A DNA stretch of 64,000 bases from the NCBI GenBank assembly GCA_021904315.1, contig CM038912.1, positions 3,807,061 to 3,871,060 of the forward strand. Direction: 5' to 3'. Source of the stretch: Sphagnum magellanicum (lineage: Eukaryota > Streptophyta > Sphagnopsida > Sphagnales > Sphagnaceae). The translations under genes were made by a program, and so were the position numbers. Each line of letters begins with the position of its first letter. Positions within the stretch are counted from its first letter, which is position 1. The notes beneath the pieces were generated by a model. The model saw only the letters and a program-made list of their open reading frames with translations. It had not been told where the DNA came from and ran no database searches. Positions 2,803-62,560 of the stretch are shown here, one piece after another.

Positions 2803-3240
2803 CGTGTCATGCCTGTATGCATGGCCTCATACATGACAGCCGATTACAGACATGTTAATCATGCCTTTTAGGGTTAATGTACATTCTTAGGTTACTGTAC
2901 ATTATTAGGTGTTTTAGGGTTATGGCTTGTTTAGGGTTTCAGCTTGTTGACGGATGTATAAAAGGCCAAATTCTTCCCTTCTCTAGTTAGTTTTTCTAGA
3001 ATTCCTTCGTCAGGACAGTTCCCTCCATAGATTAGATTTCTAGATGCTCATGGCGGCTATTACATAGCCATTGTTTACATACACTACGTTTTCTTTCCTT
3101 CTTTGCAATTTAATTCTAGAAAAACTACTTTTGATCACTTAATGTTGAAAGCAACAAATTTTTCTTGGCTTTGAGTTCTTAGGCTTCTTTTGCTGTTAGT
3201 GTTGTTGTTGTTGTTGTTATTGTTGTTGAAGGGAGCTTGT
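2803..3240 (+). promoter_or_regulatory. Candidate 5' LTR or promoter of the 2.8-9.6 kb element
   Basis: The stretch begins 'tgtcatgcctgtatgc', has a TATA-like 'tataaaagg' at about 2957, pyrimidine-rich sequence after it, and lies upstream of the gag-like frames of the Ty3/gypsy-type element. That is the layout of an LTR with its U3/R/U5 parts. No second copy is visible because the element is cut off on its right side, so the LTR cannot be confirmed by pairing. It could instead be an unrelated promoter. Confidence 0.3.
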
Positions 3241-4215: not shown

Positions 4216-4716
4216 TTGACACACCATATTCTTCAAATTGTATGTATTGCGTACATGCATATCCAATATTGTATTCTTCAAATCGTATCTAGTGCTCTAT
4301 ATTTTTACAAAATTTTGGGGTATGGGACAACACCATGTCCTTAAATGATGAGAGCATTACCGCTCAGCCAGAGCCAATGTATTAACTATGAAGTAACACA
4401 TAATCATTTGAGCTGATTTCTTTGAGCTCATGATCTTCACAATAGTACCATCAAATGTCTATAGCATTAACGTCATCTAGTATAGTTACTACCAAGAATT
4501 CAAGTTTAGGTTACATTACATCAACGGTACATCATAGTCCATTTGGAAGGGTTAATTAGTGGGGTACGTTTGTTGTTGCACCTACTTTCACACCATCATC
4601 GTATATTCCACTGTAAATCCTTAGCTCTACACCCATATACACCGTGGAGAATAGAGAAGTTCAGTGGAAGGTTAGGTACCATTTCTTTAAAGGAATTCAA
4701 GGTAACTTTTTGAACT

Positions 4717-5708
4717 GTGGTTTGTGAATTGGAGTTCAAGTATGATGCTAATTACATCGAGGCGTTTGCATTTAAACAACTGGCTCGTTATGTGCAGTAT
4801 GAGGCATTGGATGTCTACGAGCAACATTTTCCGAGGGTTTTGAGCGTCACCCAGATCTCCAATCTAACTTATGTCACAACCATCACCACCACCTCTCAAG
4901 CTGCACTGCGAGCTGCCATTGCACATCATGGGACTGTGCTGAATAATCCAGATCCGGTACCTACTTCAGTAAACCTTTTTTCTCAACAATTCATTGCTAC
5001 TACCGCAAACATTCCTCCCACCATCAATGCACTAGCTTTTGCTGATCTAGTGGGAGAATTCTTTCAAATTCTTGAGTTGAAATTTTTGGTCCAAAGTTCT
5101 GAAAAAATTCTGCAGCTCGCCATTTTCTCTCGGCAGAAAGATGAAACATTCAAGATGCTTTACAAGAGGCTTCTCAAAGTTAAAGAGGATACTCAAAGCA
5201 TCATAAACTTGGAAGCTGCCCATTGGTATCTTTGTTCGTTAGAAGGTACTCAGACACTCCATGCGTAGGTTTTACAATAGGTTTTTTTGCAGAATTTGGA
5301 GACTCGTACATTTTGTTGGATGTGTACAACATTTTTAAAAACCTAGAATTAATTCATGCACATCATGAGGCTAGTACTATGAGGCTTCCATCACGTTCAA
5401 AGCTTGAGCTTCCACCAGCTGTGCTAACCAAATCATCACATTCTTCTTCAAAGGCTAAAGCGGTGCACTCGGCTGCACCCATCCTACTTTCTTGTAACTA
5501 CTATGGCAATCCTGCCCACAAAGCTAGTGAGTGCAACATTCCTTTCAAGCTTTTCTTTTATGATTATTATGGGAAAAAGGGACATCAGGAAGCTATTTGT
5601 TTTGCCAAGTTCTTGGAACGGAAGCAATTCCAATTACCACAGCAAAATCTACCAGCATATTCCGTTGCCCTTCAACCAAAAGCCAAGGCACCTCAGCCTT
5701 CCACTTAG
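4717..5708 (+). mobile_element. gag-like region of the methyltransferase-bearing retroelement
   Basis: Frames here read as a retrotransposon capsid region. A helical segment around 5130-5260 contains 'QKDETFKMLYKRLLKVKED', as expected of a gag domain. Two zinc-knuckle-like motifs follow: 'CNYYGNPAHKASEC' at about 5493-5534 and 'YDYYGKKGHQEAIC' at about 5559-5600. Two knuckles after a capsid domain fit a Ty3/gypsy-type Gag. The region belongs to the decayed element and is itself broken. Confidence 0.65.
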
Positions 5709-6332
5709 GCTTTCCCCACCAAGGGTATTTCTAGTAGGAATGTTAAGAAGGAACATAATGTTGATAAAAGGGAGGTGCTTCAAGCCCATGCCATTCAAAT
5801 TCAAATTCTGCAAAATGAATTCATATCATTGAGGGCCTAATTTGCTAATCTAAAAGGCAAGTCTTCCCAACCAGCTAGTCATGCCCAACCTGTACAGGGT
5901 TCAAGATCATGAGAGGGAACTCCTAGGTCATTTTATGGCCTCCCACACGATGCCATGGTTGGGGAGTATGTTATTTCTAGTGCACACAATTTTAGTCTCA
6001 CACCAGAATTTTCCATTTCTTTTTTCCCTTCTTACTTTGTGGCACAAGAGGCTAGTGTGGCACCCAGAGTTTTTGCCACTAGGCAGGTAATTCAGACTGA
6101 TGGATTCGCATCTGGTTCAAGTCCTATTATTAGGGCTAGAGGAGCTCGAATAGTCATGCCATAATCTTTTCGTCTTTTCAACATGGAAGAAAAACGCACC
6201 TTGTTGGCGAAAGGGGAGGAGACTACTATACCACAAGTTGTTAGGGCATCAAATTCTCGTGTCCCAGGAGTACATGTACATGAGAAAAACACACAATTTT
6301 CTAATGATCAGCTTATGGAGTGCTAATTTCAA

Positions 6333-7055
6333 ATGCGTGAAACAGCACAAAAGCTTGTGAGTACACCATTGTTTAATTTTCAAGATTTGAAGTTAAGCAC
6401 CAGGGACATAATTGTAGTATTAGAAGATACCTTAAACACTACATTAGGTCCTTTACCAATCCTTAATCCACATGCTACAAGGGTCCCATCCAACACCTTG
6501 GAGAAACACTTGATTGACTCACGTGTTGTAGATGGCATTCGTAATCTGGTCATTAGTTCTAACATGGTTAAACTAGTGGGCTTTCCTACCTCTGATTCTA
6601 CATTCGCATATTACAAGGGAGCTAAGAACATTTCATTTATGGATTTGTTATTCAACAAAGTTGTTGTGGATAACTATTCTCTCCACAAAGTCTTTGACTC
6701 ATTTTCGAAGGTGGTGCCTAGTGAGAGAACTTCCATCGCCACCAAAGTTGCCATTGTTAACAACATTGAGTCAGCAATCCAAGTGGGAGGACATACACCC
6801 AGAGTGGTATTTTTTGATACATGTGCCCAACCAGTGATTCGTGGAGTTCAATTTGCCAAGAGGATGGGCATGCTCAACTCCAAATTACAAAAATCTATGT
6901 GGCAAATTTGCACCGCTAGTGGGAGTGTAGAGGAAGTACTTGGGGAGAGCTTGGATTTGATTGTGCTTAACTTCAATGAAGGTATAGATCAAGAGCTTTG
7001 CGTACAGGTTAAATGTTTATTCACTAATGCCATTAGTTATGATGTGCTCATTTGA
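6333..7055 (+). mobile_element. Protease region of the same retroelement
   Basis: A 240-codon stretch. Its central part, 'RVVFFDTCAQPVIRGVQFAK' (about 6801-6860), resembles the active-site strand of retropepsin-like aspartic proteases, where the pattern is hydrophobic-hydrophobic-D-T/S-G/C-A. The segment before it resembles no domain I can name. It lies between the gag-like and methyltransferase-like regions, where a protease is expected in Ty3/gypsy pol. Confidence 0.55.
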
Positions 7056-7479
7056 CAAGAAGCCCTGTTTCCACCAAGTTTCATAATTGACAATTGGTTC
7101 AAGCATGCTTACTATCGAGTGGATTGGGAGACTAATGGCCACCACCTGGGATACATACCCCTTGATTTACATGGGAACCATAGTCCTATGGCTCACCATT
7201 GTATGTTCAAGGAAGCACACACCATTTCCTACATCCAACAAGCTAACCATGAGTGGATAAAGGGAGATGAAGAGGAGACAATTTATGCCCAAGCTACTAA
7301 AAGCTTGAAGGTGGTTCCTTTTGACATTCAACACAGACTAGAGGTTTTACAAAGTTTCAAAGCAGCCCACGAGCCCTTGATCAAAGTTTTGTTTAGTTTT
7401 GAGAACATGGAGAACTATGGCGAACCGATTAAACCAATATTTCGTCAGCTAATCACTTGGACACCACTTAAGGAGGGGA

Positions 7480-8330
7480 TTACATTACTAGAGCTCTTTG
7501 GTGGTATTGGTATAGGTCTCGAAGCCCTACTATAGTAAAGGATGGTGGTTTGGAAGTATTTCTACGTAGACATTGATCCTATTGCAAGGCAAGTGGTGGC
7601 ATCGAGAATGATGGAACTCGTAGCCAGATTTTCACAACAGTTTCCAACCATCGCATGGAAGGCTAATTTCATTTTCTTGCCCTCTGACATGTAATTAATT
7701 TAGAAAAAACATATGGAATTGCTTGGCCCCGTGGACCTCATCATTTTAGGTTGGGAGTATCAAGAATTTTTAGTGGCTAGATTTGGAGAAGGTTTAAGTG
7801 ATACAAAATCCGGTCTCTTCACGGACATGGTATGATTGATCATCCGGGTTCAATCCATTTTTCCTATGTTTAGTTATGTAATTGAGAACACCCCTTTTCA
7901 GCTTGACCAGAGGGAAAAAGTCCAGGAGCATTACACGCTAGTCAAACATTACTCGATGTGGCACAATGCGATTCATATGCGCACTAGCTATGCAATTGGT
8001 GGACCAACCTTGCACCAATTTCAGTTTTACAGTTGGTTCTAAAATACACCATCAGAGACCCCAACCTATAGGTTTCTCACATATTGGATGATCAAAGCTC
8101 CTGCTAACCAGTTACAAGGTAAGAAAAACCTCCTTAGTTTCTTGTAAACATAATAGGAAAACTGAAAGGTGCTTGGCCCACCTTTATCTCCTTCTCAGGA
8201 ACACATGCCTTTTAGGGAGATGGACTAGGCCTGGTGTATCGTCATTCTTCAATCACTTGGGATGAACCAAGCCTTGAAGAAAGAAAAAGGGCTATGGGGT
8301 TCCAAACTGGCATTATTAGTCACTGAGGTG
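7480..8330 (+). mobile_element. C5 cytosine DNA methyltransferase-like domain within the retroelement
   Basis: Several blocks occur in the order expected for a C5-cytosine DNA methyltransferase. A motif I-like AdoMet-binding block is 'ITLLELFGGIGIGLEALL' (about 7479-7532; compare the family pattern DLFxGxGG). A motif II-like block is 'YVDIDPIARQVVASRM' (about 7564-7611). A motif IV-like region is 'GPVDLIILGW' followed by 'GEGLSDTKSGLF' (about 7725-7830). A motif VI-like block is 'YVIENTPF' (about 7873-7896). Near 8285-8315 there is 'RAMGF', like the late motif of these enzymes. The pieces lie between the protease-like and RT regions and share their orientation and decay. Such enzymes transfer a methyl group from AdoMet to cytosine C5. 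This copy is broken. Family membership is my inference from motif order and has not been searched. Confidence 0.75.
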
Positions 8331-8809
8331 ACTATATTGGAACATAATGCTTTACTAGGGAGAGGCATGGACCTGAACTCCCTTACATGGTTGTTGGTAA
8401 CTTGTGTACTCTTTTAAATGTACACAACACCAGCATTGATTTAATTAGCTTGTAGTTCTGGCGATGTGACTACATGGCACCCCAACCAAGTACACTTGCC
8501 TATCTTCAACACTCTACACTTCACTTTTAGTGTTGGGGGGAGGTGGTACCATGTAATTTGATTCAAGTTATTTTTGATACACTTGGAGGTACATCAGCTT
8601 CTGGAAAAACAATTACAACCTTCTACGAATTTGCGTAGTTGGATAGTGGAGAACCCAATACACCAAGTTTTTCAAACACACTTTCCAATTCCATTCCATG
8701 TGTTTCTAGCTACCCTTTTGTTATGGGGAAGCAGTTCACCAAGAAGGAGAAAGACTAGGTCATAGACTTGTTAATTAAGTATGAAAATGTGTTTGCATTC
8801 TCAATGAAA

Positions 8810-9570
8810 GATTTAGGTAGGTGTAAGACCATGCAATTCTCTATAGACCTTATAGATGAAACACCCATCTATCGGAGGAAGCATAGGTTGAGCAAACATG
8901 AGTGGGAACTGGTAGATGAAAGATGCAAATAGCTCCACGAGGTTGGTCTCATTGAGCCATCAAGTTTTGATTTCATAGCTACTACATTAATGCTAGTAAA
9001 GAAGGATTCAACTGGATTATGGATTGAGAAAAGGATGTGTAGGGATTATAGGCCTTTAAACCTAGTTACACCTCAGGACAGGTACCCCATGCCCATCCAT
9101 GAAGAACTGTTTGATAACATTGGAGACTCAAACATTTTCACAATTATGGATCTGAAGCAAGGCTTCAACCAGATTATGCTTGTTGTGAAGGATTATAAGA
9201 AAATGACATTCCATGGGAGCAATAAGTTGTGGGAATGGCTTGTGATGGCTTTTGGATTGAAAAATGCACCTATCTTCTTTAAGTGAGTCATGGACTAGGT
9301 TTTCGAAGGGGTAGATTTCTTGAAGTGCTACATAGATGACGTCCTAGTGCATAGCAAGGGACTCCTACAACACTTGGTTCATCTTGAGGAATTATGAAAG
9401 AAGTTCCACGAAGTTAATATGAAGATCCATCCTAAAAAGTGTGAGTTTGCTTTCACCTTAGTAGCCTTCCTTGGACACAAAATTTTGCCAAATGGTATTA
9501 TGGCTCATTGGGCCAAAGTAATAGCTAATTTGGAGATGCCCAATCCTATTGATGTTCACACTTTGAGGAG
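8810..9570 (+). mobile_element. Reverse transcriptase of the same retroelement (Ty3/gypsy type)
   Basis: Typical RT blocks are readable: 'CRDYRPLNLVTPQDRYPMP' (about 9038-9094), 'FTIMDLKQGFNQIML' (about 9138-9182), 'MAFGLKNAPIFF' (about 9246-9281), the catalytic 'YIDDVLVHSKG' (about 9328-9360), and 'KKCEFAF' with 'FLGHKILPNGI' (about 9435-9500). The order and spacing are those of a Ty3/gypsy RT. The sequence leaves the RT alignment near 9575, so RNase H and integrase are absent from this copy. Confidence 0.85.
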
Positions 9571-9579
9571 CCTCAACTT

Positions 9580-21500: not shown

Positions 21501-24371
21501 ATCTATACACACAATGGGTTTAAACTATAATGCCAAAATACAATCCCATGAAAAATAGATAACTAAATGGCACATTATGAATTCACAAGCTTATGTTATA
21601 AATTGGAAATTTGATAGATAATATAAGTAATTAACATTGTAATATATTTTTCAGTATGACATTAAGGTGAATGTGAAGGGATCAAGAAGAATTCTTGAAA
21701 AAATATGTAGGGTATTGAAATTATTTATGTCGTTCTTTGAAATTTACTATTAAAACTATATATTATTACCTTGTGTGTTTTCACTTTTAAGAAATTGCAT
21801 AATTTCAAACTTCCATTGTAAAATTTACATTTTTGTCAATTATATTTTTTCATTAGTGTAGAAAATAATATAATAATTTTATTATTCCAAGATTCATTAC
21901 ATTGACCCTAGATATGCTATATTCAAATTATTTAATTCCTCCAATTAATTGTTTTCTTAATGAAGCTTGAAACTTATTAATCTTTAGATAGACATGGCAT
22001 GTTTGGGTGAACATGATCAAATTTTTTTTGGGGATGTGTGTGTTGACATTTTCAAAACAGCTATCAGTCGATCGAGCTTTTCTCGCAAACTACCTTTGAT
22101 ATTGTCAATAACATTGCCAAGTATTATTGCAATTATTGGTGGAATAATCTATTACACCACATTTCGGCAATATCGTGCACAAACATTAACTTTACGTAAC
22201 ATCCAAAAAGGTTTGCTTAGGCCCTTGAATCCTTGAAAATGAAATCATTTGTATCAAACACAAGGTTCAAATTTTGCAATGATAATTAATAGAATGAAAA
22301 AACACAAGATGTTCACACTAATCAATATGCATTAAATCAATTTTTCTTAAAAACTCAATAATCCTTTTGTTTTGAGGATTTTGCATGGATTCATTGATAT
22401 TCAATTCAAAAGACTTTATGGACAAAAAAAGTATTGAAAATAGGTATTAATATGTTTGCAGAAATGGCAAAACAATCAACATTATATTCATATCATGAGT
22501 TAAGGGTAGCCACTCGAGATTTCCATCTTGACAACAAGCTTGGAGAAGGTAACTTTGGTGTTGTTTACAAGGTGAGTAGTTTTTTTTATACCATGTACAC
22601 ACAATCATTTATGTATAATCTTATGCATGAATTCAAATCATTCAAATAGACTTTTAATTTTCATCTCCATTTATATTTACATATTGCATGGAACTTTACA
22701 ATTCAATTTTTTTTAAAATTTGATTTACTATGTTGAATATGTCACATCAAATTGTGCCACACAATTAACAAAGGTTTTCTAGAAAAAGATTTGTTGCATC
22801 AATTTTTTACAAATATATCTTCTATGAAAATATGTAAATTGAAAAAAATTGATGTTTGTTTGCAGGGAATTTTGTCAAATGGGACAGAATTAGCAATAAA
22901 ATGCTTGAAAAGTTCTGAACAAAATGATATTGGTGAATTTTTGAATGAAGTTGCACTCATCACTGGCATCAAACACAAGAACCTAGTGAAATTGATAGGG
23001 TACTGTGTGCGAGATGCACAACGACGCTTTCTTGTCTATGAATATGTGGAAAACAAAAATCTTGCTGAAGCTTTATGGGGTATGACACAATTTGCATCTA
23101 GGCCCAAAATAATCATTACAAATGATTCACAACATGCCATGTGATCATCAATCATTTGTCTTGATAATAATATTTGTTTGTGCAGGAAACCAAATGGAAG
23201 GTGATTTGTTTTTGGATTGGTCAAAAAGGTTTAAGATATGTGTGGGAATTGCTCATGGCCTTGCTTACCTTCATGAAGAGTTACAACCATGTATCATTCA
23301 TCGAGACATCAAAGCATCTAACATTCTTCTTGACAAGAATTTGAATGCTAAGATCGCAAACTTTGGAACAGCATGATTATTCCCTGATGATGTCACCCAA
23401 GTATTAACACAAAGAATTGTTGGAACAAGGTAAAAAAGGCAATGTTATTGATCCATGACCTTTTATTTTGATTACTTGACTTCACATACATGTCATTGAA
23501 TTAATATTGCAATGTACCACATGATTATAAGATTGAAATTTTCATATCGAAAGAAATTGATCATTTTTTGTGGTTTGTTTCTTGTTTGTTTGTTCAGAGG
23601 ATATTTATCTCCAGAATATGCCACTTGTGGCCACCTCACTCAAAAGTTAGATGTCTATAGCTTTGGGGTTCTTCTCCTTGAAATCGTAAGTGGTAGGAAG
23701 GTCATGGATTACAATCGTCCACCAAAAGAAATAAACCTTTGCAATTGGGTAAGTTTCCTAACATGCCTTTACCATTTGTTTTGCATTTAATGATAAGATC
23801 ATCGCGGTGTGCATTGAATGAATGTACATACATATATGACATGTTATTTGGTATGATGTTTGCGTCTTGTGATATTTTCTACACATTGACATATAGCATG
23901 AATACATGCATGTATAAATGTGCATTTAATCAAATCATATATTTAGATCATATATGTCAATGTGTACAATTTCCATTAGCATTCTAAATATTTCAATTAT
24001 TAAGCCTAAAATGACAACTTATCATGCAGGCAAGGTCTTTGGAGGAAAACAATATGTTGGCATATCTTGTTGATGAAAGGTTACACAACAATGGTGTTTT
24101 GGATATTCAAATGCAACGTGTGATTGATGTGGCATTCTTATGTATTCAAACCACACCTGATAACTGTCCATTGATGTCCCATGTTTTGGCCATGCTCTTG
24201 GGTGAAATGAAGATGCAATCAAAAGGAGAAAGGATGACACCCAATGAAACAAGCATAACAATTTTAAATGATTTCACTGAAAGTAATGTGTTTTCACATG
24301 AATTCAATAGTATTGACCAGAATAATGCTAATGTTGAAATTGAATTAAACATTTTACCTCATGCAAGATAA
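15517..24371 (+). pseudogene. LRR receptor-like kinase RLK1, disabled copy
   Basis: Eighteen exons: 15517-15634, 15819-16005, 16170-16241, 16512-16586, 16843-16911, 17320-17478, 18296-18484, 19180-19248, 19744-19902, 20165-20239, 20872-21012, 21226-21365, 22061-22210, 22462-22571, 22866-23079, 23186-23429, 23598-23748, 24030-24371. All borders are GT-AG and the frame holds over 888 codons. Parts: signal peptide ('QQLLIAMLIFHQQ'), LRR N-cap ('LYSAWNN...VLRGWNSS'), LRRs, one membrane span ('LILSITLPSIIAIIGGIIYY'), then kinase with GEGNFG, AIK and HRDIKASN. It is disabled: DFG reads NFG (23359-23361), the codon two after it in GTA-R is TGA at 23374-23376 (RLK2 has CGA), and the late conserved Arg is Cys ('DNCPLMSHV'). 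Translation would end at about residue 705, leaving receptor, membrane span and little more than the kinase N-lobe. It could act as a decoy receptor if expressed. That is inference. Confidence 0.85.
19327..19439. repeat. Fold-back hairpin in RLK1 intron 8
   Basis: Arms of about 32-35 bases pair: 'gagaatatttggcc' at 19327 onward against 'ggccaaatattctc' ending at 19439. The pairing continues inward through 'aattat' and 'tgacc'. The centre is itself a near-palindrome ('actatatagtatata' / 'tatattatatagt'). RLK2 intron 8 has only the first arm (about 54588-54612). It may be a small MITE or an unfinished inverted duplication. Confidence 0.7.
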
Positions 24372-27955: not shown

Positions 27956-29051
27956 ATGATGTTGGTTTTCTATCCAGAGTCTTGTAGAGCTCCTCTTTTG
28001 GCAAGCCTTACAACGACGACGGCCCCAGCCTCTTCCTGGGCGTCAACATCATCAGTACACAGAGGACGCCGATTGGCAGTGTTGTCTCCAGTTTTCCGAA
28101 TCAAGAGGTGAGCGATTACTTTTTCATTTGTTGATTGCTGTTAGGCGGAGTTTGCAAGCCATGTATCGATGGTACAGTTTCTCGTGATGTAATGGATTTG
28201 GATACTAGAACCTGTATACAGAAGACTGTCACCCATGGTTTCTTCACTTTCTTCCTAAATCTTCGCAAATTCTTCCATTCGAACCCAAACCCTAAATCTT
28301 GCTTGTCTCAAATTGTGCAAAAATGTAAGGACGTTGAGCTTTGAGAAGGCATTTCCATTCCACTCTGATGAGATCAGAACACACATAAGCCTTTGAAATG
28401 CATTTCACAAATTGTTCAGCTTCAGTAGTTTAAGGCTTAGGATGCCGTGTTCAAGATTTCTGTATTGCCAAGGTGCTTACAGGTTTGGGTCTTGGTTGAG
28501 TTGAGTTTTTGGTTTTTTGTTTTGTTGCAACTCCAAGACTTTTGTTAGGGAGACTTTTCTTGTTTTTGAGAAAACACCCTGATGAGACAGACACCATACA
28601 ATTTTGCAGATTGGAAAGAGGGAGGAGCAACATTGTGAGAAGCACACTAAATACAAGTGGAAGTCCAGGTGGTGGAGATGGTGCTGACAAATCAAGGAGA
28701 AGCGGCATTGGTCTAGGGAGCACTCGCATAGGAAGGCTGGTATCTGCTCGCCGTCAAGAACTATTGAAGAGGTGGAACACAGTTCGTCGGAACTTTCCAG
28801 CCAAAGTCTTTCTCCTTCTTTTTGGATTCTTTTGTTCAAATGCATTGGCGACGATTCTAGGGCAGACAGGTGACTGGGATGTATTGGCAGCCGGAGTCAT
28901 GGTTGCAGTTATTGAGGGCATAGGCTACCTGATGTATCGTATGCCCGTGTTTCTCAGCAGCAGGGGAAAGGTGGTCATTGAATTTGTTAATTACTGGAAA
29001 ACAGGATTCTCATTTGGTTTGTTTGTAGATGCATTTAAACTTGGGAGTTGA
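27956..29051 (+). CDS. Ycf20-like protein (DUF565), plastid-targeted
   Basis: Two exons, 27956-28107 and 28610-29051, joined by a GT-AG intron (gtgagc ... ttttgcag), give 197 aa. The first about 60 residues are rich in Ser, Thr, Ala and Arg with few acids, like a chloroplast transit peptide. The mature part carries the family signature: 'STRIGRL', 'FPAKVFLLLFGFFCSNALAT', 'GQTGDWDVLAAGVMVAVIEG', 'IGYLMYRMPVFLSS', 'NYWKTGFSFGLFVDAFKLGS'. Two or three hydrophobic membrane segments are visible. Plant homologues (the NPQ6/NPQ7 group) affect non-photochemical quenching in thylakoids, but the molecular role is poorly known. No break is seen. The start is the first ATG of a tandem ATG pair, and either could be used. 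Copia scraps lie on both sides. Confidence 0.85.
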
Positions 29052-33710: not shown

Positions 33711-34527
33711 TGTTGCAACCCCACTTTGAAGGAAGTGCGAGGTCACCAATCACACTCCCGAAAATGGAACTTGGGAGTCCTCCGGGACTCCCAAAAACTC
33801 AGAGCACGATTGTAGGGGTCAAAACACCTTGTATTGAGGCGTTCTTTATACCGTTGAAAAGGTCTTGAAGTTTAGATGTCCAAAATGGCCTTGCATGAGC
33901 CATTTGGACATCTGCAGCACGAATTATGGTCGAAAGAATAATCGAAAGTCAAACTGGCAATTTGACTCCTGACCACTAAAAGTCGGGAGTTGACCCGATT
34001 CCGGTGCGTGTAAATGAAGTGCAACACACCGTTGAAAAGCTCTCCAGGAGAGCTACAACTTTGGTTGAGATCTTGTCCCGATCCGAGTTCGGGGCGAGAA
34101 ATTATGAACGCCCAAAGTCTCGGGAGTCCAAACTGGGACAGTTTTGGGACTCCACTTTGGGAGTCCCGGGAAAAAGAGCCATTTGGATGCAAGTGCAATG
34201 GAGAGCTGCAGAGAATACTATATGGGGGAAGGTGGTGGCTTCCCCTGAGTCCGGGCCTTGGTGAATCAAGTGAGTCCAAGGTAGCCCGTGGCTTGTCCCA
34301 ACACCAAAAGGGTGCAAAATGAGTTCTAACCAACTTGTTGGTTGGATTTGGATTTGGATGCAGGACCGTATAATTGAGTAAGCTTGTCCCTCTTCCTAGT
34401 CAAATCCCGGAGCTTTCAGCACGCCCCTCTCATCCCCCCTTTAGTGCTGGAAACTGGGAGCGTGCCCCAAGTCCCAGAAAATTCCGCAATTTGAATGACA
34501 TAGCCTCAACTTGGGGCTAACTTGGGA
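33711..34527 (+). mobile_element. Chromovirus inner LTR copy (LTR-B)
   Basis: About 816 bp starting 'tgttgcaaccccacttt'. Its last about 60 bases ('gaatgacatagcctcaactt') differ from those of LTR-A and LTR-C, which resemble each other more. No primer-binding site follows it and the gag-like frame starts almost at once. It may derive from a second family member by recombination or nested insertion followed by loss. Confidence 0.75.
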
Positions 34528-35480
34528 CTTGGGAGCGCGTCATGGGGAGGAGGAACCAAAAACCCGAGAGGACCAAGATGAGCCTGAAAGTGAAGAGGAG
34601 CAACGGAGCTCGGTCCTATTCACCCAAGAACAATTGGAAGTCCTCCTCAAGATGAATAGGCTCGACTTCAGTGAGCTGGTTGTAGCCTTCAAAGGAAGAA
34701 CATCCAAGGATGCAAGGTTCCAACCAGCTAAACCTCGAAACTTCAATGGTGCCCATGACCGAAAGGTTGTGGATGTTTGGCTTGCAGAAATGGAGGATTA
34801 TTTACATGCCGCCAAGGTTGGACAGCACTCGACCGTGGAGCTTGCCTAGTCCTACCTGAAAGGCTATGTCACCACATGGTGATAGACAGTGAGATAAAGG
34901 AAGAACCATGGCTACACTTGGGAGTTCTTCAAGGAACGCGTTGAGACCGAATTTGTCCCAAGGAACTCCGACTACATCTCAAGGTGCAAACTTCGTGACC
35001 TGGTGAATGCCACAAATGAAAACTTGAGGCAATATGTGAAGGCTTACTCCGAACTAATGCTTGAAATCCGGCACATGCATGAGCTGGACCATGTGTGCCA
35101 ATCCGTGATGGGACTTCCAACTTGGGCCAAGCGAAAGCTTAAGGAAAATTGGCCCTCCTCACTATCCAAAGCCATCACGAAAGTGGAGGGCTTCTCGGAT
35201 GTGGGGCGGAATGAAAGATCCGGGCTCAAAAAGGATAACAAGTTCTTTCACAAGAAGCCAAGGCATGATGGAGAATGGAACTGTGGGCAAGGAAGCCCAA
35301 CAAAAGATAAGCCTAAACAATTCCAAGGCATGGGGTTTAAACCCAAGGGGAACTTTGTGAAAAAGGGGGCTCCTTTCAAAGGGAGCCAACCCAGGGGGGA
35401 CGTTGGGGTGAAACCCAAAGGAGTGTGTTTTAACTACAACGAGATGGGGTATTACTCCAAGGATTGTCCCAAGTCCAAAA
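34528..35480 (+). mobile_element. Chromovirus gag region
   Basis: Frames read 'FTQEQLEVLLKMNRLDF', 'RNFNGAHDRKVVDVWLAEME' and, further on, 'RQYVKAYSELMLEIRHMHEL', as in plant Ty3/gypsy Gag. A basic Lys/Gly-rich stretch follows, then a CCHC-type motif 'CFNYNEMGYYSKDC' (about 35428-35469). It is a structural nucleocapsid-capsid precursor. Broken. Confidence 0.8.
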
Positions 35481-35559
35481 TGGGGAATGGGGGCTCTAAG
35501 GTAATTGCCCTTAATGCCAACCTAGCCCAAGCTGAATGCAATCGACTTATCTTCTTGAA

Positions 35560-38480
35560 GGGGAAGATTGTTAAACGGGATGTGTTATGTCTTTTGGACA
35601 TAGGGGCTTCTCACAACTTCATAACCCGAGAAAGCGCCGAAAGGATGGAACTCCACTTGGAGGAACTTAAGGCACCCATCAAGGTGCATTTCGCGGATGG
35701 GGTTCCCCATCCCACTATGTTACAAGCAAAAGAAGTGCCTCTCTAACTAGGAAATTGGAGAGGGAAGGTGGACTTGTTGGTTTCCACCTTGGGTGGAATG
35801 GATTGCGTTTTGGGAATGGAGTTCATTACCTAAAACATTGTGCTCATAGAAGGGCATAATAGACTAGTTAGGATTCCTTCCAAAAGTGAGATCGTGAAAG
35901 TGAAGGCGCACGAGATGCCTTGTGTGGGTGGGCCAACCATCCACTTTATGTTAGGAAAAACTTGGGAAAGAGAATGTGTGGGAGGTTATGGCATGATGTG
36001 TGTTATGCGGGTGTTGGATGAATATGAGCCCAAGGAAGTCACCAAGTTGGTGACTTCCGCTAAGTGCATAAAGCAAGTTTTGAAAGAGTTCCCGAATGTG
36101 ATGCCTGAAGAGTTGCCCGAAGACCTGCCCCCGAGAAGACGAGTTGATCATGCAATCGAGGTGGTACCGAAAGTGGCACCTCCCGCCAAGGCCCCATATA
36201 GAATGAGCCATGAAGAGTTGAAGAGCTTGAAGAACTCCTCGCAAAAGATTATATCAAACCAAACAAATCACCATATGGGGCACCCATCCTTTTTGTTCAC
36301 AAGAAGGATGGGACGTTGAGAATGTGTGTTGATTATAGAGCGCTCAACAAGGCAACGGTGAAAAACCAATATCCTTTGCCTTGGATCGATGATCTATTTG
36401 ATCGTCTCTCGGGAGCCAAGGTGTTTAGTAGGGTCGACCTACGTTCGGGATATTACCAAATTCGGATTGCAAAAGGGGAGGAAAAAAAAACCGTTTGCCG
36501 CACAAGGTATGGCTCATACGAGTTATTGGTGATGCCTTTTGGGTTCACCAATGCACTCGCCACATTTTGCACTCTCATGAATGACATTTTTCAATAATGG
36601 CTCAATGATTTTGTCATCGTCTACATAGACGACATTTTGATCTATAGTGGCTCCTTGGAGGAACATGAAGAACACCTTTGGAAGGTGTTCCAAAGGCTAA
36701 GGGAAAACAAGTTGTATGCCAAGCTCGAGAAATGCGAATTTGGGGTGACAAAAGTGGACTTCCTTGGGCATAGGATAATTCAAGAAGGTTTGAAGATGGA
36801 TGATCACAAGGTCAAGGCAATTGTGGATTGGGAACCACCCAAGTCGATGTCGGCCTTAAGATCCTTTTTGGGTTTGGCCTCCTATTATCACAAGTTCATC
36901 AAGAACTTTACAAAGATAGCCACGCCTTTGACAAACCTCTTGAAGAAGTCCGCCGTCACTTACGAATGGGAAGGAGCATAGGACGAAGCCTTTGAAACCT
37001 TGAAAGGTATTTTGGTGAAGGTGCTAATGTTGAAGTTGCCCGACTTTGACAAAGACTTTGAGATCCATTCCGATGCCTCCGACTTTGTAATTGGAGGAAT
37101 CTTAGTGCAAGAAGGAAAACCAGTGGCATTTTAGAGCAAAAAGTTGAGTGAGACGGAACGAAGGTGGCCAACACACGAGAAGGAAATGTGGGCAGTCATA
37201 CATTGTTTCAAAACTTGGGGCCATTACATAGGCTCCAAAGATGTGGTGATGTGGACCGACAATGTGACCTTGAAGTACTTTGCCACTCAACCCAAGTTTT
37301 CCTCCAAGCAAGTGAGATGGCAAGACACATTGGCCTTGTTCAATGTGGATATTTGACACAAGCCTGGGAAGGATAATGTGGTGCCCGATGCGCTAAGCCG
37401 GAAACACCAACTTAGAGTGGTGTATGTGGGAGAGACAGAACTCTAAAAGGAGATTCGATTAGCAAGCTGCCAAGATGCATTTGTCAAAGAGGTAAGGCAA
37501 AACATTCAAAATGGAGGCAAGTCCCATTTCCATTTGCAAAATGGATTATTATGGTACAAACAAAAACGACTCTATGTGCCGGAAAAAAGAGTAAGAGAGT
37601 TGCTCTTGAAGGAATGTCATGATGGACCACTTGCGGGCCATGGTGGTGCAAAGCACACCACAATATTCCTTAAGAAGCCCTACTATTGGCCCAACTTGAA
37701 GGACGATGCAAAAGAGTATGTGAAAACTTGTTTGACATGCCAACAAAATCAGACCCTCAACAAGAAGCAAGTGGGCTTATTACAACCTTTGCCAATCCCC
37801 GAAGGGCCGTGGGAAAGTGTGTCCATGGACTTCATGGTCAGCTTGCCCCCGTCAAAGGGTTTCGATGCCATCATGATAGTGGTTGATCGATTTAGTAAGA
37901 TGGCACATTTCATTTCCATAAAGGATGAGGCCACGGCCCAAGAGACGGGAAGGTTGTTCTTCACACATGTTTTCAAGCATCATGGTCTTCCAAAGGACAT
38001 AGTTTCGGATCAAGACCCAAAGTTCACAAGCAAGTTTTGGCGAGCCTTATGGAAGCGAATGGGGTCGAAGCTCAAGATGAACACTTCCTTCCGCCCTCAA
38101 ACCGATGGACAAACCACGAAGGTGAACTTGATCATCTAATAATTCCTTAGGACTTATGTGGCAGCGGATCAACAAGATTAGGTGGACCACTTAAAGTTAG
38201 CCGAGTTTTGTTACAACAACTCAGGTCATTCCACGACTGGGTCCACCCCCTTCCAAATGGTGACAGGCAAATCACCAATTGTGCCCATGACTTGGGCAGC
38301 ACATGGACAAACCCCAAGTGATGCAAGTGAGGAAGTGCCAATGGTCACACAACTTGATGAGGAAAGGCGACACCTTTAGGAGTTGGCAAAGGCCAACTTG
38401 GAAAAGGCGCACAAAAGGTACAAGGATTTTGCGGACAAGTCCCAACAAGAGGTGAAATTTCAAGAAAGAGATGAAGTGTG
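35560..38480 (+). mobile_element. Chromovirus pol: protease, RT, RNase H, integrase
   Basis: Protease 'LLDIGASHNFITRESAERM' (about 35590-35646). RT with '[19 protein letters not shown]' (about 36322-36378), '[12 protein letters not shown]', 'MPFGFTNA' and 'VYIDDILIYSG' (about 36619-36651). RNase H with 'EIHSDASDFVIGGIL' (about 37061-37105) and 'TDNVTLKYF'. Integrase with an HHCC-type zinc region ('HDGPLAGHGGAKH ... CLTCQQNQ', about 37618-37752) and core motifs 'VDRFSKMAHFI' and 'SDQDPKF' (about 37880-38026). The order is that of Ty3/gypsy elements. Broken in several places. Confidence 0.9.
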
Positions 38481-38707
38481 GTTGAACATCAAGAATTTCT
38501 GATTACCTAAAAGTTTAAACCATAAGTTCTTGGGCCCATATGTGGGCCCATTCAAAGTGTTGGAAAAAAAAACTTTCCGACACTTATAAGTTAGAACTAT
38601 CGGAAAACCTTAGAGTTCATCCCACATTTCATGTTTCCTTTTTGAAGCCGGTCACCCGCAATGCCTCAAGGCCTAATTAAGAGCACAACTCAAGGCCCCC
38701 ACCAGAT

Positions 38708-38911
38708 TTGGTTCATAATGAACCAGAGTTTGAGGTGGAGGGCGTGTTCCAGTCAAGGCAGCTAAGAGGACGAGAGCGGGAATACTTAGTGAAGTGGAAA
38801 AGATACCATCTTATAGAGGCATCTTGGGTGAATGAATCCGACATGGAACATGCCCAAGAAGCTATAGAAGTATTTCACACAAAACCGGCAAAGAAAAGAT
38901 GTAGAACGTGA
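38708..38911 (+). mobile_element. Chromodomain at the chromovirus integrase C-terminus
   Basis: A 67-codon frame with 'FEVEGVFQSRQLRGREREYL', then 'VKWKRYHLIEASWVNESDM' and a C-terminal helix 'AQEAIEVFH'. The three-strand plus helix pattern with aromatic positions is typical of chromodomains. In chromoviruses this domain is thought to steer integration towards particular histone marks. Confidence 0.85.
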
Positions 38912-39704
38912 TGAGGACATCACCTTTCTTTTAGTGGGGTAGGGTGCCACATAAAATGTACCACATCAAGTTGCAAGTGAAATAAAGGCTTAAGAACTTC
39001 CAAAAGATTGTATCACGAAAATAATGTATAAGTGCAAAAAGGGTTGTCAAGTTTGACATGGGACAAATGGAACTTCTTGCGTAAGCCCAAATCAAAATCG
39101 AACTCCTACTTTGGGGTGAAGAGAAATCTTGACCCCAAAAGAGGAGGCAAGCAAGGTGAACTTGCGAGGACATGCGTCAGCTTTAAGTGCATCCCAAAAG
39201 GTTGGTTGGTAGTGGCGACCAACGTGGGAAGTCATGACCCCGTTCGCGTACTTTAATCGTGTAGTTTGGGACTTGGGTCTTGGCAAAACCCAAATGTCGC
39301 TTCTCATACTTTCATAAACAAACCTTTTAATCAAGGCTTGATTGTTGTGATCAAGGCGCAAGGTTCGGAAAGGAGTCATGTCAAGTAGCTTAAGTCAAGA
39401 TTAGACTTGACTTGAGTTCCTCATGAGGGGAAGGTTGAAAGAATGGCCTCCCAAATGAGGGGTTCCGTCAATTAGGCTAGTTTAGTCTTTTGACGAAGCA
39501 AAAGTTAAGGGTTTTCTATGAGATACCCTTGGACTTGCCAAGAAAGTGTTGGAAACTTGGGGACGCCTAAGATAGCTTGAAGCAAGGTCTTGTCGCAAAA
39601 ATCGGCATTTGATGGCCAAGGATCCAAGGAAAGTGATTGCAATTGCGAAGAGAAATTTCTAGGTGTCAATGAGGACATTGACCTCTTCTTCTAGTGGGGG
39701 AGAG

Positions 39705-40521
39705 TGTCGTAACCCCACTTTGCGGGAAGTGTGAGGTCGCCACTCACACTTTTGAAAATGGGACTTGGGAGTCCTTCCGGGACTCTTGAAAACTCAGAAC
39801 ACGATTGTAAGTGTCAAAACACCTTGCATTGAAATGTTACTTATACCGTTGAAAAGGTCTTGAAGTGTAGATGTCGAAAATGGCCTCGCATGAGCCATTT
39901 GGACATCTGCAACACGAGTTATGGTCAAAAGAAGGGCCGAGAGTTAAATTGACAATTTGACTCCTGACCACTAAAAGTCGTGAATCGACCCGATCCTGGT
40001 GTGTGTAGGTAAATTGTGACACACTGTTGGAAAGCTCTCAAGGAGAACTACAACTTTGTTTTAAACCTCATCCCAATCGGAGGTTAGAGCGAAAAGTTAT
40101 GAACGCCCAAAGTCCCGGGAGTCCAAACCGGGACAATTACGGGACTCCACTTTGGGAGTCCCGGGAAAAAGTGCCATTTGGATGTAAGTGTGGCGGTGAG
40201 ACGCATAGAATATTATATGGGGGAAGGTGGTGGCTTCCCCCGAGTCCGGGCCGTGGTGAGTCAAGTGAGTCCAAGGTCGCCCGTGGCTTGTCCCAACACT
40301 AAGAGTGTTCCGAATGAGTACTAACCAACTTGTTCATTGGTTTTGGATGCAAGACCGAGTAATTAAGTAGCTTGTCCCTCTTCCTAGTCAAGTCCCGGAG
40401 CTTTCAGCACGCCCCTCTTACCCCCCCTTTAAGTGTTGGAAGCTGGGAGCATGCCTCGATTCCTTCCCAATTTCGTAACTTGAGCAAGTTAGTCCCAATT
40501 TGGGACTAACCAAGGACTTAG
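39705..40521 (+). mobile_element. Chromovirus 3' LTR (LTR-C)
   Basis: About 817 bp beginning 'tgtcgtaaccccacttt' right after the purine tract 'agtgggggagag', ending near 'accaaggactta'. It is the partner of LTR-A by the sequence of its last 60 bases. The exact 3' end is uncertain by a dozen bases. Confidence 0.85.
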
Positions 40522-48420: not shown

Positions 48421-59534
<11,114 letters not shown>

Positions 59535-61766: not shown

Positions 61767-62560
61767 AAATTGGAGAAGAGTCCTTGCAATAAGCACTCAT
61801 AGAAATTTCCTAGTGCACCTTACATCCAGGGTTCTTTTTTTTTCAATTTTGTGAAGTATGTGGAACCGCCATTGTCAACAACAAGACTTAGCCAATTTTG
61901 GATAGAGGTTCGAGAGAAAAGTTTTAAAAGATTCACAAGGACATACAAAAACCTTAGTATGCCGTAAGTCTAAATATGATGAGTTCAACTTTTTTCTTGT
62001 CCTCCTTGAAATACGGCAACTTTGGGCCTTTTTCCCCCCTAAAAACTCCTTCGAATAGGTGACAGCCCCAGTTTCATTGTTGCCATGAAAAAAGATATCC
62101 CTCCTCTTGTCTAAGAGTTGGGCCCAAACATAAGATGATGTCTTGTCTAAAAGCTGGCCCCAAACATAAGATGGTGTCTTGTCTAAGAGCTGATCCCAAA
62201 CTTAAGATGGCATCTTGTAAGAGCCCACCCCAGAGAGCTGGCCCCAAACATAAGATGAAATCTTGTCTAAGAGCCCACCCCAAATGTAAGATGATGTCTT
62301 GTCTAAAAGCCCACCGCAAACATAAGATGGAATCTGGTCTAAGAGCCCACCGCAAACATAAGATGACATCTTGTCTAAGAGCTGCCCCAACAGTAAGATG
62401 ACATCTTATCTAAGAGCCCACTCCAAACGTAAGATGACGTCTTGTCTAAGAGCTGACCCCAAACATAAGATGGCATCTTGTCTAAGAGCTGACCCCAAAC
62501 ATAAGATGGCATCTTGTCTAAGAACCCAACCCAAACGTAAGATGATGTCTTCTGTTAGGA
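61767..62560. repeat. Dispersed repeat R1, right copy, with long minisatellite
   Basis: Matches 2249-2800 in the same orientation. The non-repeated part (about 61767-62110) is followed by about twelve 36-bp units (62120-62550), against about five in the left copy. It begins close to where the upstream exons of the Der fragment would be expected, so its insertion or a linked rearrangement may mark the truncation point. Confidence 0.8.
62120..62550. repeat. 36-bp minisatellite, about 12 units (R1 right)
   Basis: Units of the form 'aagatgacatcttgtctaag' plus 'agcccaccccaaacat'. Each contains a palindromic 'aagatgncatctt' core, and some have 'tgacgtctt'. Several units are shortened or spliced together (for example near 62215-62245). 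There are no unique spacers between units. Confidence 0.9.

Follow-up and report, generated by a model that had tools for sequence, protein, structure and literature searches.

Here, we describe a retroelement copy in the moss Sphagnum magellanicum. It lies in a stretch of 64,000 nucleotides, hereafter the window (assembly GCA_021904315.1, contig CM038912.1, positions 3,807,061 to 3,871,060 of the forward strand). The locus is almost certainly a dead, 3'-truncated copy of a Ty3/Gypsy-like family that encodes a DNMT3-like C5-cytosine methyltransferase (MT) inside Gag-Pol. Two related proteins, P0122 (gag, protease and MT; 1214 aa) and P0125 (MT, reverse transcriptase (RT) and RNase H; 820 aa), cover positions 4648-9574 in tblastn searches, and the features are collected in Table 1. 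The element stops inside the RT at 9575; RNase H, integrase, PHD finger, right repeats and 3' end are missing. The gag label was assigned from position and from remnants of two CCHC knuckles (5493-5600), while Pfam gag models matched neither the window nor the relatives scanned nor copy c17. An in-frame gag-pol TGA stands at 5910, where other copies read CGA or CAA. A search of the window's first 30 kb for direct and inverted repeats gave no terminal pair. The element is cut short, and its left repeat shares only 72-74% identity with the corresponding repeats of other copies.

Table 1. Features of the retroelement copy, in positions of the window
Feature	Position	Strand	Evidence
Left terminal repeat A (2805-3116, the element's left end) and start of 5' leader, decayed	2805..3213	+	72-74% nucleotide identity to repeat A/leader of c17, c8b, c14, c20, c2
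Internal region gag-protease-MT-RT of the same element	4290..9575	+	85.6% nucleotide identity to copy c17; tblastn over 4648-9574
gag	4648..5910	+	tblastn of P0122; translation; codon comparison
Retropepsin-like protease, DTG decayed to DTC	6777..6935	+	PF13650 E 0.046 in the window copy; PF13975/PF13650 in P0122, P0124, copy c17
DNMT3-like C5-methyltransferase domain, inactivated by stops and frameshifts	7470..8470	+	motif blocks; relatives' alignments; fold of relative P0121
Motif I block, LLELFGGIGIGLEALL	7485..7532		translation, frame 3
Motif II block, YVDIDPIARQ	7563..7592		translation, frame 3
Motif IV block, GPVDLIILGWEYQEF	7725..7769		translation, frame 3
Codon of the catalytic Cys, now TAT (Tyr)	7758..7760		
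Motif VI block, YVIENTPF	7875..7898		translation, frame 3
Motif VIII, CDSYAH*LCNWWTNL, stop replaces Arg	about 7970-8011	+	translation, frame 2; SYAHRLRNWWTNL in relatives and copies
Late RAMGF block	8288..8302	+	translation, frame 2
Reverse transcriptase, truncated (RVT_1 about 9032-9484)	8690..9574	+	PF00078 E 4.8e-23; tblastn of P0125

A first-pass annotation, made from the letters and their open reading frames, had reported five C5-methyltransferase blocks between protease and RT. All five were located by translation, in the order and at the places described, with RAMGF in a different frame. Overlooked at that stage were motif VIII, with a stop inside it, and the loss of the catalytic Cys. 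The domain carries 12 stops in one frame across 7455-8442, and the frame shifts near 7950 and near 8320. Together with the 3' truncation, these lesions are in line with the earlier description of the copy as a fossil.

A profile search of the decayed copy, which the annotation had proposed as a check, succeeded in part: RT and protease were found with the E-values of Table 1, but PF00145 was not, the only match being CoaE (E 0.035). When stops were replaced by X, the window MT matched 290 protein clusters at E<=0.01, the best at 1.1e-77 with 78% identity over 72% of the query, and a chance resemblance was rejected on this result. PF00145 is borne by 90 of the 120 clusters listed, and all six relatives scanned with Pfam exceed its cut-off; many close relatives are metagenome proteins, which would fit an origin in peat. 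P0030 reads from part of the protease straight into the MT, and P0001 and P0068 do so from sequence just past the protease. The MT is of the DNMT3 type without a DRM-like rearrangement. A plant DRM type was rejected, as the motif order is unpermuted in the window, the relatives and the copies. MET1, CMT and DRM are absent from the 50 listed fold matches of P0121, which is uninformative of itself.

The genome searched comprises 438,994,042 bp in 31 contigs (the window is G000:C6:3807061-3871060). P0002 matches at least 130 places (130 of 968 candidates scored), of which 13 are stop-free over the matched stretch and the worst has 13 stops. In copy c17, a single uninterrupted frame of 2379 codons runs from gag to the PHD finger at the C-terminus. 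Within it, Pfam finds gag-asp_proteas (4.1e-7), RVT_1 (5e-29), RNaseH (2.3e-38), Integrase_H2C2 (2.5e-15) and rve (2e-11), in that order, and PF00145 (1.1e-8) in the same frame as these Pol domains. Some copies combine long open frames with near-identical repeats. A second search used RT-RNase H (best 100 of 5020 candidates scored), and MT places, 130 from the first search and 61 from another, were sought up to 3 kb upstream on the same strand. Such a match accompanies 73 of the 100 RT copies, with a commonest spacing of 637 bp. For the other 27, 1.7 kb upstream was read: 23 have at least 100 residues of the MT, one has 48 and three have none. In all, the MT lies directly upstream in 96 of the best 100 RT copies, with one fragment and three copies without MT; the refuting condition named by the annotation, family members lacking the domain, thus fails. 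L056, an RT copy without upstream MT, has an MT match nearby on the opposite strand and thus looks rearranged.

The family order is gag-protease-methyltransferase-RT-RNase H-integrase-PHD finger, and the MT is a regular component of the family, under purifying selection in the multiplying lineages. The first-pass proposal had been that a land-plant retroelement family encodes its own methyltransferase, which should recur in independent copies in the same order. Both parts hold, given the 96 RT copies, the 2379-codon frame and the liverwort protein P0124 ('unnamed protein product [Calypogeia fissa]', on a 66.6-Mb contig), which joins protease and MT at 62% identity and ends before the RT.

The same moss genome harbours a second MT-bearing Gypsy family. 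L025 (C14) and L027 (C18) have the order protease-MT-RT, and L028 (C8, other strand) has MT-RT with the protease unmatched. Its MT is about 41% identical to P0122, and the RT of L027 is 48% identical to P0125. Motif IV (GWPCQG) and motif VI (LENV) of L025 and L027 are nearer to textbook C5-methyltransferases. A further locus, L026 (G000 C17:13029985-13030332), we take to be a host methyltransferase exon, probably of DRM type, from its GGSPCNNLSG motif.

More distant relatives carry the MT elsewhere in Pol. Among the algal-like Gypsy proteins P0126-P0134, it lies between RNase H and integrase in all seven scanned with both neighbours. Integrase and PHD finger occur together in 8 of the 10 proteins P0126-P0135 (not P0133, not P0135), by precomputed or our own Pfam scans; P0135 is from Haematococcus lacustris. 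PF00145 is above cut-off in P0127, P0131, P0133 and P0134 only. In P0126, P0128, P0130, P0132 and P0135 the MT is recognised by alignment, with PF00145 below cut-off (P0129 lay outside the Pfam scans). Past the PHD finger, P0134 at about 1600-1746 (ITNDVNP, ITSPKE) and the P0128 C-terminus look by eye like a second, different methyltransferase, with no Pfam match. In an MT tree of 15 rows, five members with the MT after the protease (c17, P0122, Calypogeia, L025, L027) are split from nine with the MT after RNase H (98/97); P0122 and Calypogeia were placed in the former group without their RT itself being seen. An RT tree of 10 rows also splits the two sides. In it, another Gypsy element of the window (described below) groups with the moss side on a long branch, and hence the trees are no proof of a single capture.

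Selection was estimated as pairwise Nei-Gojobori ratios of nonsynonymous to synonymous changes (Ka/Ks, mean Ka over mean Ks), in which pairs are non-independent and post-insertion decay adds noise. For eight copies (28 pairs), Ka/Ks is 0.307 in protease and linker, 0.167 in the MT, 0.360 in the spacer, 0.256 in the RT and 0.257 from RNase H through integrase to PHD. Motif IV reads ECQ, not PCQ or PCN, in 112 of 135 fetched relatives. An alignment of 11 diverged MTs shows no variation in the motif IV Cys, the motif VI Glu-Asn or the two Arg of motif VIII.

The ends of the element show an unusual anatomy. Copies c8b, c20 and c6 are built as A1-coding-B1-A2-B2, with A of about 310 bp and B of 178 bp, and c17, c8a, c2 and c14 as A-coding-B only. 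Right ends were tallied in 22 copies, 14 of them added from the high-scoring ones, with the right end alone read for L037, L040, L041 and L042. Ten end in B alone and eight in B-A-B, the latter having A-coding-B-A-B repeats; two are rearranged (c10, L036) and two lack B where expected (L034, L046). None of the 20 resolved right ends is B-A followed by flank, and in L036 B-A is followed by inverted RT. Target duplications of 4 bp are perfect in 14 of the 16 copies with both ends read, one other being AAAT/AAAC and L036 unjudgeable. They adjoin TGTCATG at the left and the end of B at the right (in c10, inverted ends). At the B|A junction, GC stands between the ends in 9 of 9 cases. In copy c10, pieces of A and B are inverted and an inner 4-bp duplication (TACA/TGTA) is present, a pattern as expected from a self-integrated two-LTR circle (LTR, long terminal repeat).

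Signals of replication lie within these repeats. A TATA-like box (TATATAAA or TGTATAAA) is found at 147 of A in all seven copies read (c10 left out), and AGTTTTTCTAGA at 180-181 of A in six of seven (not c2). The latter is complementary to TCTAGAAAAACT just past A in c8b, c20, c6, c8a and c14, and the c17 primer site has one extra A. Directly before B stands TCTGGGGGGGG, or TCTGGGGGGGA in c14, in eight of eight copies. By the usual LTR logic, promoter, self-priming site and polypurine tract would make the LTR B+A, which would place the integrated ends mid-LTR. Since the B|A junction is where copies terminate, flanked by 4-bp duplications, the DDE integrase appears to attach mid-LTR. We propose this model here from the anatomy of the element. 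In the open-licence literature, with subscription journals mostly outside it, no report was found of mid-LTR attachment or of moss or liverwort retrotransposons that bear an MT.

The decay of the window copy is informative in another respect. At sites of the young copies, it shows C to T changes (either strand) at 31-36% of CG, 28-32% of CHG and 12-13% of CHH positions, and A/T transitions at 5-7% (8 comparisons). A reverse control, with the context taken in the window copy and the change in c17 or c8b, gave 20% for CG, 16-19% for CHG, 6% for CHH and 13% for A/T, so that part of the excess reflects CG/CHG mutability in the multiplying lineage too. The window element has an observed/expected CpG of 0.31, compared with 0.36-0.41 for the eight copies and 0.46 for window positions 10001-64000. 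The TGA at 5910 is shared with the young copy c8b; the same position reads CGA in four copies (a fifth reading is probably that of c2) and CAA in two, changes expected of a methylated CpG. The pattern points to methylation at CG and CHG, as is normal in silenced plant elements, and is uninformative on the element's own enzyme.

Implementing these observations, the following life cycle is proposed. The RNA would start in repeat A, about 33 nt past the TATA-like box, and its 5' end would fold onto the complementary sequence directly after A and prime itself, as in Tf1. Reverse transcription would yield cDNA with LTR = B+A. The MT would enter the particle as part of Pol and place de novo methylation, most likely at CG, on the newly made double-stranded DNA. 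The DDE integrase would insert this methylated DNA, partly as two-LTR circles, at the near-palindromic mid-LTR junction CACGACA|GC|TGTCATG with a 4-bp duplication, and integration may be steered by the PHD finger through recognition of histone H3. As the likeliest benefit, a new copy would be taken as resident, already methylated chromatin and not as foreign DNA, the cost being that it is silenced later. We consider this explanation as a whole, element identity and cycle together, to be likely. Its most specific form is held tentatively, as somewhat less than an even chance: that the integrase makes no use of the cDNA ends and attaches mid-LTR, in part acting on two-LTR circles, leaving circularly permuted copies, many without a terminal repeat, while the DNMT3 methylates the DNA before integration and the PHD finger reads the target chromatin.

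Several other explanations have to be weighed. A host MT gene or pseudogene struck by a retroelement, or a chance resemblance, might be suspected as the decayed window copy, taken alone, misses PF00145. This is extremely improbable in view of the same order in 96 of 100 RT copies at a commonest spacing of 637 bp, the uninterrupted frame of c17 and the recurrence of this order in a second family; the 2379-codon frame and the RT copies refute the host-gene reading. The permuted ends might, in turn, be conventional LTR copies rearranged after insertion, without integrase acting at B|A. Two of the 22 copies are indeed rearranged and two lack the expected B. We judge this unlikely, as perfect 4-bp duplications flank the start of A and the end of B in 14 of 16 copies (one more with a mismatch), none of the 20 resolved right ends is B-A-then-flank, and c10 has the inner duplication that a self-integrated circle would leave. 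It is improbable, moreover, that the MT is a remnant without catalytic activity, retained because it serves Pol structurally, in folding or DNA binding. ECQ for PCQ in motif IV and ENT for ENV in motif VI would agree with such a role, as would the MT of KnitGypsy-Dnmt3, an element of Klebsormidium nitens, which gave no methylation in yeast, a result that its authors judged inconclusive (PMC5890265). Against it stand the invariant residues of motifs IV, VI and VIII, the Ka/Ks of the MT below that of the RT among eight copies, and the PCQ of P0127, P0133 and the second moss family, which indicates that E and P alternate within an otherwise conserved active site. We regard the enzyme as probably active in intact copies. 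A further alternative concerns its target: the MT may methylate host chromatin or RNA, or damp the element itself, and not act on its own cDNA. RNA methylation and self-restraint were both raised as options by de Mendoza et al. (PMC5890265). A chromatin role would suit the PHD finger in the same polyprotein, and at least 130 MT matches, 13 of them stop-free over the match, offer many possible sources of enzyme. The position of the MT between protease and RT argues against it, since in Gypsy elements Pol is carried into the particle, and we find this alternative rather doubtful. Methylation of the element's own cDNA is the role that we think likeliest, although whether this cDNA is the main substrate of the MT seems to us evenly balanced; function is inferred here from position, conservation and a yeast result for a different element.

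A number of points weigh against the observation itself or against the preferred explanation and are gathered here. As to the observation, the window copy itself lacks a PF00145 match, and a sequence search of the PDB with the decayed copy gave no C5-methyltransferase, only EspG2 glycosyltransferase (E 2.1). As to the explanation, activity is not assured with ECQ in motif IV; moreover, 2 of 11 copies have SSWECQ for SGWECQ, and in 2 of 11 the late ERAMGF block was not found. The Ka/Ks of the MT rises to 0.203 with three further copies (11 copies, 55 pairs). When the window copy is compared with the eight, protease and linker give 0.502, MT 0.309, spacer 0.575 and RT 0.254, so that the MT is not the lowest and its margin over the RT is modest. 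The window copy has decayed like a host-silenced element, and the host's own enzymes would cause the same. All copies were located via similarity to MT or RT, best-scoring ones only, and what is said here of expression, packaging and substrate is proposed from sequence.

If the self-methylating element with mid-LTR attachment holds true, 'DIRS-like' split repeats are possible without a tyrosine recombinase, and the end anatomy offers a possible route to them with a DDE integrase. De novo methylation would then be deliverable by the element and not solely imposed by the host. Land plants have been described as lacking MT-carrying elements of this kind, and an algal curiosity becomes testable in an accessible plant: an element that would methylate its own DNA before integration, to whose benefit being the question.

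The remainder of the window contains further features. An ordinary-looking Gypsy element occupies 33711-40454, with gag, RT and integrase frames at 34499-38139 and repeats at 33711-34542 and 39705-40454. Copy c20 contains a related repeat. Two near-identical sets of receptor-kinase-like exon frames (labelled by eye) lie about 35 kb apart at 22737-24371 and 57556-59534. Tandem repeats occur at 2553-2796 (unit of about 36 bp) and 62063-62401, with similar translated units at both. The frame at 28500-29051 presumably encodes a protein resembling Ycf20-like chloroplast proteins. Rfam (gathering scores) and tRNA scans of the window were both empty, and in tblastn against genome-contig and viral-contig collections no stretch passed.

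Among known systems, Tf1/sushi-type Gypsy elements are self-priming, and Tf1 has ordinary LTR ends. The moss family resembles them in that its RNA 5' end and its primer site are complementary (over 12 nt), and differs in its mid-LTR ends. With the catalytic domains of vertebrate DNMT3A and DNMT3B, its MT shares 22-25% identity in the best structural alignments; these enzymes have PCN and ENV where the moss family has ECQ and ENT. Unlike them, it shows no ADD or PWWP domain, and a PHD finger lies far downstream in the same polyprotein. The algal-like pols P0126-P0134 and P0135 share the G-W/F-E/P-CQ motif IV, and differ in having the MT after RNase H, in 33-39% identity and in their separate branch of the MT tree.

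Retroelement capture of DNMTs was reported in 2018 by de Mendoza et al. (PMC5890265), a paper that the first-pass annotation had cited for such capture in dinoflagellates and a charophyte alga and whose content agrees with that citation. SymbioDIRS-Dnmt3 and SymbioLINE-Dnmt of Symbiodinium are, as described there, alike in the capture of a DNMT, and the DIRS type also in its A-coding-B-A-B repeats. SymbioDIRS-Dnmt3 has a tyrosine recombinase and SymbioLINE-Dnmt an endonuclease, whereas the moss family has a DDE integrase (rve and H2C2). Membership of DIRS was rejected for the moss family, as c17 shows no tyrosine recombinase domain among its Pfam matches, has rve and H2C2 instead, and 4-bp target duplications occur. 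KnitGypsy-Dnmt3, from a charophyte, is closest in kind, the comparison being made with its published description (PMC5890265). None of the relatives listed is named as a K. nitens sequence. Its figure legend gives DIRS-like repeats with Gypsy domains, and its MT has Ka/Ks < 0.2. Both elements thus share Gypsy domains, an unrearranged DNMT3-type MT in the Pol frame, A-coding-B-A-B repeats on a Gypsy body and purifying selection on the MT. KnitGypsy-Dnmt3 is described as having 'fewer copies' than the Symbiodinium elements, against at least 130 MT matches and a liverwort relative for the moss family, which is set apart from the published description also by mid-LTR ends, by copies without terminal repeats, by 4-bp target duplications and by its PHD finger. 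KnitGypsy-Dnmt3 thus represents the known kind; new here are the land-plant hosts, the abundance, the intact copies and the anatomy of the ends.
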